From Oscillospiraceae bacterium (GTDB taxonomy: Bacteria > Bacillota > Clostridia > Oscillospirales > Ruminococcaceae): a DNA stretch of 64,000 nucleotides. Positions within the stretch are counted from its first letter, which is position 1, and the number at the start of each line of letters is the position of its first letter. Shown here piece by piece: positions 45,009-49,894 of this stretch. The notes below the pieces were generated by a model. It saw only the letters and a program-made list of their open reading frames with translations. It was not told the DNA's origin and ran no database searches. The stretch is taken from positions 194,514-258,513 of the forward strand of contig JAJQBX010000021.1 in assembly GCA_021203065.1 (NCBI GenBank), read 5' to 3'. The position numbers and the translations under genes are program-made.

Positions 45009-45037
45009 TTGCGGAAGGATTATCGATATGGTATAAT
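45009..45037 (+). promoter_or_regulatory. Promoter of the XRE/TPR regulator
   Basis: TTGCGG (45009-45014), 17 bases, TATAAT (45032-45037), 31 bases upstream of the GTG start. Confidence 0.75.
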
Positions 45038-45068
45038 TAGGGTAACAAGATCCGAGGAGGGAGAAATC

Positions 45069-45986
45069 GTGGATAAGAAAGACATTGGCAAATTAATTAA
45101 AACACGTCGTGAAGAAAAAAATTGCACTCAGGAAGAGCTCTGCAATGGAATTTGCACTCCGTCCACTCTTTCAAGAATTGAATCGGGAAAATTCTGTAGC
45201 AATACGAGTGTACTTGCGAGACTTCTTGAAAGGCTTGGTTTATCAGCTGACTATCTAAGAGAAGCCAATAACGACGAAGACTATCTTGTTCGCCAAAAAA
45301 TCCGTGACATAAATCACGTTAACATCAGCGGAGACAGAGAAAAAGCTCGCTCAATGCTTGCTGAACTCGGCAAGAATTACGATAGCTTTTCCGTTGAAAA
45401 CAAGCAACGCTATGAAGTTATAGATACAAAAATGTTGTATGAAGACGGTTTGATTGACGCCAAAACACAGCTTGACCATCTCGAAGATTCACTGCGCCTT
45501 ACTGTCCCGAATTATGACGAGAACAACCTGCCAAAATACATGACCAATATGGAAGCTCAGATTTTGCGGGATATTGCAAACAGTTACGGCGGGATGCAGG
45601 GATATGAATCAGCAGCTACAATACTTACGCACATAAAAGGCAATATCGAGAAAAATATAGTTGATAAAGCGTATTCGGCACGAAAGCTTATAAATGTGTG
45701 CTATAGCCTATCAAAATATCTTGGATTGATGGGCAGATATGACGAAAGTATTCAAGTTTCTCAAGAGGGTATTGAGTGCTGTGAATATGTTTCAAATCTG
45801 AGCAGGCTTCCAAGCTGTATGTATAATTGCGCTTGGTCTTTGGCACGTCGTAACAATGTTGGCGACAAAGAAGAAGCGAAAAAGCTTGCAGAAGAAGCTC
45901 TTTCGCTTTGTACACCGAGGGTATGGGATGCTGACGAATTAAAAGAATGCATTAGCCGCTTGCTTATGGAAATCAAGAATCAGTAA
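45069..45986 (+). CDS. XRE-family regulator with helical-repeat C-terminus (RRNPP-like)
   Basis: The 305-residue protein has an N-terminal helix-turn-helix of XRE type (residues about 5-60: IKTRREEKNCTQEELCNG then STLSRIESGKF), followed by about 240 residues of regular amphipathic helices with TPR-like spacing, the layout of peptide-sensing RRNPP regulators (Rgg, PlcR, PrgX). I chose GTG 45069, which has GGAGGG nine bases upstream and the expected HTH N-terminus. Its last seven bases overlap the end of the convergent secreted-peptide gene. Codon and base usage are AT-richer than in the preceding MutS-like gene. Which peptide it senses, if any, is inference. Confidence 0.82.
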   Translation: MDKKDIGKLIKTRREEKNCTQEELCNGICTPSTLSRIESGKFCSNTSVLARLLERLGLSADYLREANNDEDYLVRQKIRDINHVNISGDREKARSMLAELGKNYDSFSVENKQRYEVIDTKMLYEDGLIDAKTQLDHLEDSLRLTVPNYDENNLPKYMTNMEAQILRDIANSYGGMQGYESAATILTHIKGNIEKNIVDKAYSARKLINVCYSLSKYLGLMGRYDESIQVSQEGIECCEYVSNLSRLPSCMYNCAWSLARRNNVGDKEEAKKLAEEALSLCTPRVWDADELKECISRLLMEIKNQ

Positions 45987-46186
45987 TCTTCCTCATCGTT
46001 GTATGAAATTCCTGCTTCGCAATTTGGTTCGCAACCGGGTTCTTCCTTTTGCTCATCCGAGTATGAAGTGTCAACACCCAATTCCGGCGTTGATTCAGCA
46101 ACTAACGACCCGTCATCAGCTGCAACCGATATTGCCATAGCAAGTGTTGCGAGTACTGCCAAGAGCATTGTAAGTGATTTTTTCAT
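45980..46186 (-). CDS. Small secreted acidic peptide with a Cys pair; candidate signalling peptide
   Basis: The gene encodes 68 residues: a clear Sec signal (MKKSLTMLLAVLATLAMA to about residue 24, cleavage likely near SVAA/DD) and a mature part of about 44 residues, strongly acidic, with GCEPNCEAG near its end. AGAGG eight bases before the ATG and a TGGACA-17-TACAAT promoter support it as a real gene. It overlaps the XRE regulator tail to tail by seven bases and diverges from the secreted protease gene. I know of no family for it. Peptide genes that overlap or adjoin RRNPP regulators are common in known quorum-sensing loci, hence the suggestion. Confidence 0.72.
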   Translation of the reverse strand: MKKSLTMLLAVLATLAMAISVAADDGSLVAESTPELGVDTSYSDEQKEEPGCEPNCEAGISYNDEEDY

Positions 46187-46214
46187 TATAATTACCTCTT
46201 TCAAATATTATTAG

Positions 46215-46225
46215 CTGTACTACAG
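46215..46225. promoter_or_regulatory. Palindrome in the peptide gene leader
   Basis: CTGTACTACAG is a perfect 5+1+5 palindrome between the predicted transcription start and the SD of the small peptide gene. It is a possible regulator site. Confidence 0.4.
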
Positions 46226-46245
46226 TTAGTTCAGCCACAAATTTC

Positions 46246-46274
46246 ATTGTATCACGAATCGAAATTGTTGTCCA
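46246..46274 (-). promoter_or_regulatory. Promoter of the small secreted peptide gene
   Basis: On the minus strand, TGGACA (46269-46274), 17 bases, TACAAT (46246-46251). Confidence 0.65.
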
Positions 46275-46293
46275 GACTTTTCGACTTGCACGA

Positions 46294-46307
46294 TCGGAAA
46301 GTTCCGA
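46294..46307. promoter_or_regulatory. Operator-like palindrome between the divergent promoters
   Basis: TCGGAA-AG-TTCCGA is a perfect inverted repeat that ends two bases before the protease -35 box and lies 20 bases upstream of the peptide gene's -35 box. This is a natural place for the neighbouring XRE regulator to bind. Confidence 0.5.
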
Positions 46308-46309
46308 GC

Positions 46310-46338
46310 TTGACAATTTGATTATTTGCTGATACCAT
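46310..46338 (+). promoter_or_regulatory. Promoter of the secreted protease gene
   Basis: TTGACA (46310-46315), 17 bases, TACCAT (46333-46338). The 95-base leader that follows can form short nested pairings (CCCA with TGGG, CTGCA with TGCAG) before the AGGAGG SD. Confidence 0.7.
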
Positions 46339-46439: not shown

Positions 46440-47630
46440 ATGAAAAAACTTTCAAAACTTTTCGCAACTCTTATTGTAGTAGTTCTTACGCTGACGATGG
46501 TGTCGGCAACAGCAACAAGTTATGAGGTGATGGATAATGCAATTTACATCGCATCAGCGGATGTTCCGGAAGAAGCTACAGAATATGCTCTTGATAAGTT
46601 TTCACATTTAAGTGCTGAGTTTGTTGCCAGTATGGGCTTTACCTACGAAGAAGCTTGCTCGATGCGAGTTGCTTCAGGATTTTATGCGGAATCTTGCAAG
46701 GGCACTATAGAGCGTTCGGATGTTTATTACTTTCCTGTTGTAGTTGATAACAAAATTGTTGCTCTAATAACTGTCACTGGTAGTAATGACTCATATTCGT
46801 TCCAATTTGGTGCTGATGAGATGGCTACAGCACTAAATGATTTATCTACAACTGCTCAATCTCCGGTAAAGGTAATGGTTTCTCAGGAAGCCTACTATGC
46901 TGTCATTGGTGATGAGGTAATTTTATTATCAAGTTTACCATACGCTGAGCAGACAGTTATAGATGAACAAATGGAAACAATTGCGATTGAATCAGTAGAA
47001 AATGAAGTTTGCAATGTAATTTCGATCTCGTCGTCTAACGTCTATGATACATCTCTAGTTATTAGTGGTGAATCTGTACAAAGTTATGTCGGAATGATAA
47101 GGAATGTTACCATTGTGGATAATGAAAGAAAAAAATATGATGATGGAACTTTACATGGTACTTGTTGGGCATCTTGCGCTGCCTCCATGATTGATTATTA
47201 TCTTAATGGTGACGGTACAAGTGATGCACTAACGATCAGGGATGATATTCTTAAAGATATTTATGATACAACATCGTCTTATGCTGGAAGTTTAAGTACA
47301 ATGAAAAGTTATATAGAATCATATGTTTCTGGTACTACGATGAAAACGACGTATACCATATCTTGGAGTGATATAAGAACAGCTATACTTACAAATAATG
47401 CACCGTTTTGCACTCAATGGGAGCCCCCGGAGACATCAACATATGCTGCACACGTTATGGTTGTATGTGGATATTATTATGATCCGAGCTATCCAGATGA
47501 TAGCAGTTACTACTATATGAAATTAATGGATCCAAATAATACATCATCATATATTACAATCGAGTATGGAGGCACTCATACTCTTAATAATGTTGAATAT
47601 AGTTGGGAATATACGTTAATGAAAAAATAA
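46440..47630 (+). CDS. Secreted papain-like (C39-like) cysteine protease
   Basis: The 396-residue protein has a signal peptide to about residue 26, then about 200 residues resembling a propeptide, then a papain-like domain. The catalytic Cys is in GTCWASCAASMIDYYL near residue 241, the His in YAAHVMVVCGYYYD near 338, and LMDPNN supplies the usual Asn/Asp. This pattern fits C39-like secreted peptidases rather than the ABC-linked bacteriocin proteases. By count, sampled lines are 30-38% GC against about 62% in the MutS-like gene nearby, which suggests transfer. It diverges from the small peptide gene, which could be its substrate; that is inference. Confidence 0.82.
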   Translation: MKKLSKLFATLIVVVLTLTMVSATATSYEVMDNAIYIASADVPEEATEYALDKFSHLSAEFVASMGFTYEEACSMRVASGFYAESCKGTIERSDVYYFPVVVDNKIVALITVTGSNDSYSFQFGADEMATALNDLSTTAQSPVKVMVSQEAYYAVIGDEVILLSSLPYAEQTVIDEQMETIAIESVENEVCNVISISSSNVYDTSLVISGESVQSYVGMIRNVTIVDNERKKYDDGTLHGTCWASCAASMIDYYLNGDGTSDALTIRDDILKDIYDTTSSYAGSLSTMKSYIESYVSGTTMKTTYTISWSDIRTAILTNNAPFCTQWEPPETSTYAAHVMVVCGYYYDPSYPDDSSYYYMKLMDPNNTSSYITIEYGGTHTLNNVEYSWEYTLMKK

Positions 47631-47695: not shown

Positions 47696-47783
47696 AATGA
47701 AAAAACTACTCGCAATGCTTTTAGCAGTACTTATGTTAATTTCTATGATGTCCGTGACAGCTTGGGCAGATGATGATGACGAC
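47696..47783 (+). repeat. 88-bp identical signal-peptide segment, copy 1
   Basis: The bases from one before the ATG through codon 29 are identical to 49558-49645. The genes differ completely after that point. Confidence 0.95.
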
Positions 47784-48590
47784 CTCGACATCACTGACTC
47801 GCTTGATGGCGCAGACCCGGGACCGTGCTTTTACTCGCTGAGTGAACTTGTCGAGTATCGGAACTACCTGAGGGAAACGGATGAAGACCATGGGGCTTAT
47901 TATGAGAGCTATGACTGCATTGAAAACCTCGAAGGATTATATCTTCCTGAGGGCTTGACCTTTGGCGACATTACTGAGTTCATGGCTGGTACTTATTTCT
48001 ACTACGTCTATTTCGAGCTTGACGGCATAACGCTTGAGTTTACCTACTATTACAACACTGAGGCAGCTGAGCGGGTTGTTGTAGATACTCCGATAATGTA
48101 TGCAAAGGATGGTATCCATTCCGGCAAAGTTCTCGAATCAGCGAGTGGAACTACTGTTTATTACTATAATTTCGCTCCTACTCACAAGACCACTGTCAAC
48201 GAAAATCTGAACTATTTGTGGTATCAGGATGGCTACTATTATAATTTAACACTTATGGGTTCACACGATACAAGCGAAACCGGTTATGAAGAGCTCTATG
48301 GTGACCAGCTCTTGGCAATGTGCAATGCCATATACCATTCATTCAGCGAAGCTTACAACTTCACCGGTATCGCTGACGACGGCAAAGTAAAGCTTTCTTG
48401 GGACGAACTTGCCGAAGACGAAACCTACACCGTCTATTACAAGCGTTCCACCTCCGATGAGTGGAAGGTTGCCGGCACGACGTCAAAGCACAAGGTCAAC
48501 ATCACCGGTCTCAAGTCCGGCGTGAGCTACGATTTCAAGGTTGAGGCAATCGGCGTTGAGTCGGAAAGTGTTACTGTGACCGCTGAGTAA
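47697..48590 (+). CDS. Secreted protein with C-terminal fibronectin type III domain
   Basis: The 297-residue protein has a signal peptide ending near AWA/DD, an acidic Asp run, a central domain of about 180 residues rich in Tyr and Glu that I do not recognise, and a C-terminal FN3 domain (residues about 215-297: AYNFTGIADDGKVKLSWDEL in part, TYTVYYKRS, GLKSGVSYDFKVEAIG). Its first 29 codons are identical at the DNA level to those of the gene at 49559. There is no anchor motif, so it is probably released or held by binding. A hairpin terminator follows. Confidence 0.75.
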   Translation: MKKLLAMLLAVLMLISMMSVTAWADDDDDLDITDSLDGADPGPCFYSLSELVEYRNYLRETDEDHGAYYESYDCIENLEGLYLPEGLTFGDITEFMAGTYFYYVYFELDGITLEFTYYYNTEAAERVVVDTPIMYAKDGIHSGKVLESASGTTVYYYNFAPTHKTTVNENLNYLWYQDGYYYNLTLMGSHDTSETGYEELYGDQLLAMCNAIYHSFSEAYNFTGIADDGKVKLSWDELAEDETYTVYYKRSTSDEWKVAGTTSKHKVNITGLKSGVSYDFKVEAIGVESESVTVTAE

Positions 48591-49557: not shown

Positions 49558-49645
49558 AATGAAAAAACTACTCGCAATGCTTTTAGCAGTACTTATGTTA
49601 ATTTCTATGATGTCCGTGACAGCTTGGGCAGATGATGATGACGAC
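49558..49645 (+). repeat. 88-bp identical signal-peptide segment, copy 2
   Basis: Identical to 47696-47783, including all synonymous positions, so the copy is recent or maintained by gene conversion. Confidence 0.95.
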
Positions 49646-49894
49646 ACCCTTATAACCGTTGACGAATACGATCCTGAATTGGACGAGATAATGTATGAAG
49701 AAGAAATTCCGGATGAAGAATCAGTTACTTTGGCAGGTACTCAGCCCTATACAGAAACCGATACGGAATATGATTTTAATCCTGTTGAAGAAGGAGAACC
49801 TGATGAGTCCAATCCGACGACCGGAGCATATATTTTATTCTCAGTGCCGATTATGGCACTTGGCATCGCAGTAGCTTTCAAAAAGCGCAAGTGA
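49559..49894 (+). CDS. Small acidic surface protein with NPTTG-type sortase signal
   Basis: The 111-residue protein has a signal peptide, an acidic middle of about 55 residues with no recognisable domain, and a wall-sorting tail: NPTTG near residue 83, a hydrophobic helix (AYILFSVPIMALGIAVAF) and a basic end KKRK. It would be linked to the wall by a sortase. Its signal-peptide DNA is identical to that of the gene at 47697. The SD AAAGGAGG lies 22 bases after the lipoprotein stop, so the two are co-transcribed. Confidence 0.8.
   Translation: MKKLLAMLLAVLMLISMMSVTAWADDDDDTLITVDEYDPELDEIMYEEEIPDEESVTLAGTQPYTETDTEYDFNPVEEGEPDESNPTTGAYILFSVPIMALGIAVAFKKRK

Follow-up and report, generated by a model that had tools for sequence, protein, structure and literature searches.

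A candidate PlcR/PapR-like peptide-sensing locus with a convergent, overlapping peptide gene in gut Clostridia

Described peptide-sensing systems and the present locus

In bacilli and streptococci, cell-cell signalling through peptide receptors inside the cell is well established. The locus described here comes from an Oscillospiraceae bacterium and lies on a stretch of 64,000 nucleotides (contig JAJQBX010000021.1, positions 194,514 to 258,513 of the forward strand; hereafter the window, in which position 1 is the first letter). It comprises three genes: one for an RRNPP-like regulator; one, convergent with it and overlapping its end, for a small secreted peptide; and one, divergent from the peptide gene, for a putative secreted protease. 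From sequence comparison, the locus is quite likely a self-contained peptide-sensing circuit of the RRNPP type, resembling PlcR/PapR, and its peptide would probably let cells sense their own kind. The convergent, overlapping layout is recurrent and apparently undescribed, and its best reading is that of Cys-containing acidic pheromones within PlcR/PapR-type (RRNPP) circuits.

PlcR-PapR of the Bacillus cereus group is similar to the present locus in its receptor, which combines a helix-turn-helix (HTH) with a tetratricopeptide repeat (TPR) domain and can be aligned over its full length, and in its adjacent, Sec-secreted propeptide. In some strains, the secreted protease gene nprB also adjoins the pair in the opposite orientation, and NprB matures PapR in some Bacillus cereus strains (PMC10017872). 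Whereas the peptide gene of PlcR is co-directional and downstream in the receptor operon, the peptide gene of the window is convergent and overlaps the 3' end of the receptor gene. The window peptide is, moreover, longer, acidic and Cys-bearing, and the protease is C39/papain-like instead of a zinc metalloprotease.

Two streptococcal systems share other parts of the arrangement. In group III of Rgg/SHP, the peptide gene is likewise convergent and overlaps the end of the receptor gene (PMC13361665). However, SHPs are short, hydrophobic and exported by PptAB (PMC13361665; PMC10075063), whereas the present peptide is acidic in its mature part and bears a complete Sec-type signal, and the profile of the present regulator family is matched by Rgg-type chains in the PDB over its N-terminal part only. 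In RopB-SIP-SpeB of Streptococcus pyogenes, the regulator lies beside a secreted papain-like cysteine protease gene and drives it via the shared intergenic region (PMC13361665), as is proposed for the window. SIP, unlike the present propeptide with its signal sequence and convergent gene, is leaderless and encoded divergently from ropB.

The locus also falls within the limits of RRNPP_detector, namely a receptor of 250-500 aa, a propeptide of 10-100 aa and a distance of -60 to 400 bp (PMC10075063). The survey made with that tool was based on available complete genomes, and one of its clusters may hold relatives of the present pair; its main text does not mention cysteine or any of the names Faecalibacterium, Roseburia, Oscillospir-, Ruminococc- and Lachnospir- (PMC10075063). 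Literature joining RRNPP systems with Faecalibacterium or Lachnospiraceae was not found in the library searched, and an earlier listing of such pairs is possible in subscription papers or supplements.

The regulator, the convergent peptide and their recurrence

The regulator and the peptide gene are laid out as follows:

45009..45037, + strand: promoter-like hexamer pair TTGCGG-17-TATAAT ahead of the regulator gene, recognised by eye, with a weak -35 and absent from the list of the consensus scan
45069..45986, + strand: RRNPP/PlcR-like regulator, 305 aa, GTG start, with an N-terminal XRE HTH and a C-terminal TPR-type domain
45980..45986, both strands: tail-to-tail overlap of the regulator and peptide stop codons, 7 nt
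45980..46186, - strand: secreted acidic propeptide, 68 aa, an open reading frame (ORF) with a hydrophobic, signal-like N-terminus
46118..46186, - strand: predicted signal sequence, residues 1-23, with 15 of 23 columns invariant in four orthologues and the cleavage place set by eye
46010..46042, - strand: conserved core EPGCEPNCEAG, residues 49-59, with 9 of 11 columns invariant in four orthologues
45983..46021, - strand: candidate pheromone region, the last 13 residues from the second Cys onward, proposed from the Cys position in the family

The first of these ORFs had been read as an RRNPP-like XRE regulator in an initial annotation made from the bare sequence, and profile comparisons agree with that assignment. 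The window regulator matches HTH_3 (E 2.9e-10) and, below the cut-off, RNPP_C (E 2.8e-5). A profile of the family was built from 69 of 88 regulators (set A2, also used for the alignment and tree), the 19 short, split, divergent or near-duplicate ones having been removed by hand. Its best match in the PDB is PlcR (2qfc, 3u3w, 4fsc), over residues 1-295 and with an E value of 1.1e-24; ComR, Rgg-type, Rap and NprR chains rank after it, as partial matches amid many general TPR proteins. Among the 69 members, HTH_3 is found in 67, RNPP_C in 56 and TPR_12 in 46. At the column aligned with the Asn of PlcR ...VRYNHAK..., which we take to be a contact of PapR, 64 of the 69 members carry Asn. By these comparisons, the window regulator is classed as a PlcR-like HTH-TPR receptor, and the TPR-like fold on which the initial annotation had made its reading depend is predicted at the level of sequence profiles.

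The peptide gene (45980-46186, - strand) is also as first described, encoding a secreted acidic peptide of 68 residues and overlapping the regulator gene (45069-45986, + strand) tail to tail by seven bases. Its product carries a Sec-type signal, as judged by eye, beyond which the chain is acidic and ends in GCEPNCEAGISYNDEEDY. Metagenome-assembled genomes (MAGs) of Oscillospiraceae and Ruminococcus hold the closest relatives that were found, and a convergent peptide is present at all three of the nearest orthologous loci (L027, L028 and L029), whose regulators are 73-85% identical by segment. In pairwise comparisons among these loci and the window, the peptide shows a nonsynonymous divergence (dN) of 0.17-0.27 and a synonymous divergence (dS) of 0.9-2.3. 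Columns invariant across the four orthologues are most frequent in the core EPxCxPNCEAG (9 of 11) and the signal (15 of 23) and rarer in the linker (7 of 30) and the tail (2 of 9). A peptide related to that of the window also adjoins L033, a member of the sister clade of regulators; when eight short stretches were searched, it matched at E 3.6e-6, with 33% over 69 columns. Since the peptide is kept at three loci with dN well below dS and the layout is recurrent, the arrangement is more than chance, and on this comparative evidence the peptide gene of the window is real and under selection. In L029, the regulator (L029:5001-5910) is split over two frames, for which MAG error and decay are not distinguishable.

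Recurrence was counted with a mechanical rule that calls a convergent secreted small ORF by its length (38-110 aa), a basic and then hydrophobic N-terminus, its location on the opposite strand and a stop within 40 nt of the gene's stop. The rule was applied to 88 regulator ORFs from 78 loci on genome contigs (drawn from the best 80 of 306 relatives) together with the window, L016 and L019; nine repeat loci were excluded, regulator ORFs with less than 450 nt past the stop were dropped, and L029 was counted through its 211-aa part. Such an ORF stands at the 3' end of 39 of the 88 regulators and of 5 of 421 control ORFs, the latter being other greedy longest ORFs of at least 200 aa and not curated genes. 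When a motif resembling a ribosome-binding site (RBS) is added to the rule, 29 regulators and one control ORF remain. An overlap of exactly 4 nt is seen in 19 of the 39 regulator-peptide pairs versus 1 of 39 convergent pairs of other genes. Family loci occur in Faecalibacterium, Roseburia, Negativibacillus massiliensis and Eubacterium sp. 14-2, among others, and, by these comparisons, other gut Clostridia use the same regulator-peptide layout with different genes in the divergent slot.

In the tree of 69 regulators, 37 rows bear a peptide and 19 state changes are needed; the pair is thus spread over nearly all parts of the tree and has often been lost or missed. Absence or frameshift of the peptide beside orthologous regulators, an outcome that the initial annotation had raised, is not found at the three nearest loci, and absence is found at many distant members, including L016, a paralogue in the window's own genome. 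Among 391 genomes of the class that were drawn separately, eight contained the regulator (E <=1e-25), and three (L109, L114, L116) of the nine non-duplicate loci with a recognised regulator from that draw have a convergent secreted peptide. Within the window's family, 6 of 197 genomes contain the regulator family at E <=1e-20, and these low counts indicate that it is sparse. Spread by viruses found no support, as seven stretches of viral contigs matched the search pattern and none of them encoded a relative.

The pair could also be explained by a chance antisense frame at the end of the regulator gene, resembling a secreted peptide and having no function, and the half of the family that lacks a peptide by the rule used would fit this explanation. 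It is nevertheless extremely improbable in view of the contrast between 39/88 and 5/421, dN below dS, the common overlap length, the RBS and the upstream elements.

Other arrangements were seen at individual loci. One genome, that of Negativibacillus massiliensis (L020, G145:C2, and further loci), has six family regulators, and a convergent peptide is called beside two of these (L067, L073). Tandem pairs of family regulators occur at L056, L065, L068, L074, L075, L077, L078, L097, L099 and L104, and a convergent peptide, where one is seen, faces the second regulator. In the sister clade with L016, L031, L034, L035 and L041, the convergent peptide is missing. Downstream of the regulator, these loci have in common a terminator and a block, TTCGTGAAAATCGG, immediately ahead of a TTGACA/TATAAT promoter, and differing co-directional genes follow.

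The 39 peptides called by rule were supplemented with five recognised by eye (L056, L063, L065, L074, L084), and 40 representatives of these 44 served for motif counts. A Cys follows the hydrophobic part in 27 of the 40, and the last Cys is the 10th-14th residue from the end in 20 of these 27. The motif P.?C[DE] (P-x(0,1)-C-[DE]) occurs in 15 of the 40 mature parts, whereas shuffling their residues gave 2.0 +- 1.3 and reached this count in 0 of 2000 rounds (related peptides being counted as independent). With a median net charge of -7.5 for the mature parts (n = 40), the acidic character, unlike that of short hydrophobic pheromones, to which the initial annotation had drawn attention in the window peptide extends to the family as a whole. 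The peptides of L065 and L056 end in SDLPFVD and SDFPEID, respectively, ends that presumably resemble the PapR heptapeptide.

The motif near the C-terminus bears on where a signal would come from. Precedents for a different source are SHP and the sex pheromones derived from lipoprotein signals, and the signal could here derive from the signal sequence or the propeptide middle, with the acidic tail aiding export or display only. The signal sequence of the window clade, with its 15 of 23 invariant columns, is indeed conserved as much as the whole tail. However, such an origin is quite improbable, as the core near the C-terminus is the most conserved part (9/11) and in 20 of the 27 Cys-bearing representatives the Cys motif recurs at a distance of 10-14 residues from the end.

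The window propeptide, at 68 aa, is longer than the 21-50 aa of validated RRNPP propeptides (PMC10075063), and several mature parts in the family, of 40-58 residues, are long for an RRNPP pheromone. These lengths would suit a secreted effector, such as an antimicrobial or surface peptide, in which case the regulator would answer another ligand and the adjacency would reflect local regulation only. Also compatible with an effector are the frequent small secreted proteins among the divergent neighbours, the FtsX-type permease close by in two loci and the ability of the RRNPP receptor ComR to respond to non-peptide metabolites (PMC12998947). An effector is nonetheless unlikely: the peptides diverge strongly among clades yet share a Cys motif whose spacing from the C-terminus is almost constant, and the receptors are PlcR-like.

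Control region and proposed circuit

Three elements lie between the peptide gene and the divergent gene:

46246..46274, - strand: peptide promoter TGGACA-17-TACAAT, sigma-70-like, reading 46274->46246, with hexamers largely kept in four clade members
46284..46303, + strand: conserved 20-nt block ACTTGCACGATCGGAAAGTT, a candidate operator between both back-to-back promoters
46310..46338, + strand: divergent-gene promoter TTGACA-17-TACCAT, sigma-70-like, with hexamers largely kept in four clade members

The promoters proposed at the outset are retained as a back-to-back sigma-70-like pair with hexamers largely conserved in the clade, though the consensus scan was barely above chance (4 found versus 3.1 +- 1.8 in shuffles). 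The 20-nt block between them is identical in the window, L027 and L029 and differs by one base in L028, which has two directly abutting head-to-tail copies (L028:6230-6269); in the window's genome it is single-copy at up to 3 mismatches. Its distances to the -35 elements of the two promoters, 9 and 6 nt, would suit an activator of both genes. The two palindromes that the initial annotation had placed in this region were discarded: six short or imperfect pairs are listed, and the best inverted repeat upstream of the window peptide scores 6, within the range of shuffles (mean 6.8, sd 1.2).

Long inverted repeats were found in other clades. A score of at least 13 is reached upstream of 23 of 44 peptide genes versus 7 of 102 upstream regions of other ORFs, the maximum in shuffles being 11 (first-order Markov samples, which preserve dinucleotide steps only that far). 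The outer half CCAT...ATGG is common to 16 of the 23 long repeats, and in many loci the right arm runs into the -35. L099, which has no called peptide, also has a long inverted repeat, followed by the start of a secreted peptide that the rule missed. As an independent means of finding loci, the operator pattern ACCATGNCGT-N18-46-ACGNCATGGT was ruled out, with no match in the 391 class genomes; 8 of 105 locus stretches match it, so that the pattern is rare and the genome sample missed the clades bearing it.

In the proposed circuit, the propeptide would be exported via its Sec-type signal and then cut, and a short C-terminal piece around the Pro-x-Cys-Asp/Glu motif would be re-imported; two SBP_bac_5 (Opp-type binding) proteins score above the cut-off in the window's genome. 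The re-imported piece would bind the TPR domain of the regulator, and the peptide-bound regulator would in turn bind the 20-nt block at 46284-46303. Through this binding, the regulator would turn on its own peptide gene, providing positive feedback, as well as the secreted divergent protein as an output, which may also take part in peptide maturation as NprB does for PapR.

Several observations weigh against this circuit, and some features of the window are weaker than those of the family at large. The RNPP_C match of the window regulator, at 24.2 bits, is under the cut-off of 26.5, and Ser replaces the TPR-groove Asn in the window regulator and in L027. By rule, 49 of the 88 regulators are without a convergent peptide, five further peptides having been added by eye, and none is present at L016 or at five of the six regulators closely related to it in the tree. 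Mature parts and signals were called by a hydropathy rule, not by SignalP, and the independence assumed for related peptides bears on the motif test. The control region of the window has no inverted repeat above chance, and its clade is without the long one seen in other clades. Lastly, the protease link is not enriched over control genes upstream of the regulators.

More speculatively, the loci could represent a class of Cys-containing acidic pheromones, with P-x-C-[DE] about 10-14 residues from the C-terminus, that are read by PlcR-like receptors in dominant gut Clostridia (Faecalibacterium, Roseburia, Negativibacillus). On this tentative proposal, the signal could, through its free Cys, be modified or respond to redox state in the anaerobic gut, and the fixed 4-nt tail-to-tail overlap of the two genes could couple expression by converging transcription, with strong transcription of the pheromone gene damping the receptor. 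If the proposed circuit is correct, many gut Clostridia, named species included, would own self-specific pheromone channels, and candidate signals, receptors and promoter elements could be read from the genome and tested with synthetic peptides.

The divergent gene and its neighbours

Beyond the control region, two genes follow on the + strand:

46440..47630, + strand: secreted C39/papain-like protein, 396 aa, in which Cys242 (CWASC), His338 and D364-P-N366 align with L027
47697..48590, + strand: secreted protein with a fibronectin III domain, conserved as a neighbour in L027 and L029 at 78-83% identity

The first corresponds to the divergent secreted papain-like gene of the initial annotation, and its Peptidase_C39_2 match (E 7e-5, 23.9 bits) is 0.1 bit under the cut-off of 24. 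The counterpart in L027, which scores above the cut-off, is 24% identical to it around CWA.C, H and DPN. The protein is a putative C39/papain-like secreted cysteine peptidase with a candidate Cys-His-Asn/Asp set.

The content of the divergent slot varies. L027 encodes a C39_2/C70 protein above the cut-off, L028 (6403-7404) a similar gene interrupted by a stop, L029 (6337-6738) a trypsin-like fragment below the cut-off and L087 a Trypsin gene, and in other loci the slot is occupied by genes for FtsX permeases, glycosyltransferases, small secreted proteins that match no family, or other products. For the stop in L028 and the fragment in L029, MAG error and decay are not distinguishable. Peptidase-type domains were found in at least 5 of the 34 loci with a slot gene, among the matches listed; the upstream control genes (n = 54) include S9 in two and C26, M56 and C2 in one each. 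A constant pairing of protease and peptide fails beyond the four loci of the window clade and L087.

The three-gene signalling circuit first suggested for this locus therefore stands in part. Its regulator-peptide pair is borne out by the full-length PlcR match, RNPP_C in 56/69 members, the peptide at the three nearest orthologues and the layout recurring in 39/88, while the protease is matched by peptidase-like slot genes, of unrelated families, in the window clade and, among the matches listed, otherwise in L087 only. The protease is probably a co-regulated output and perhaps a maturase. A role mainly as dedicated peptide maturase is favoured by the peptidase-like slot genes, of unrelated families, at all four window-clade loci and by the precedent of nprB, which adjoins plcR-papR in the opposite orientation and whose product matures PapR in some Bacillus strains (PMC10017872). 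Such a dedicated role is doubtful, though, as outside the clade only L087 is comparable among the matches listed, peptidase-type domains also occur in the upstream control, L028 and L029 keep the peptide although the slot gene carries a stop in the former and is present as a fragment in the latter, and RopB drives speB as an output (PMC13361665).

The fibronectin III gene is kept beside the pair in L027 and L029, with no match in L028, and the genes upstream of the window's regulator were not found in the 10.9 kb around the three orthologues; regulator, peptide and fibronectin III gene thus behave as a unit of their own. The secreted proteins encoded at 47697-48590 and 49559-49894 are unequal in length and open with an identical signal sequence, MKKLLAMLLAVLMLISMMSVTAWADDDDD, as would result from the copying of a signal sequence from one gene to its neighbour. 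Some Faecalibacterium regulators (L019 and L022) have a divergent radical SAM-like gene with a CNFRC motif on their upstream side, and Radical_SAM matches occur in 5 of the 54 upstream genes.
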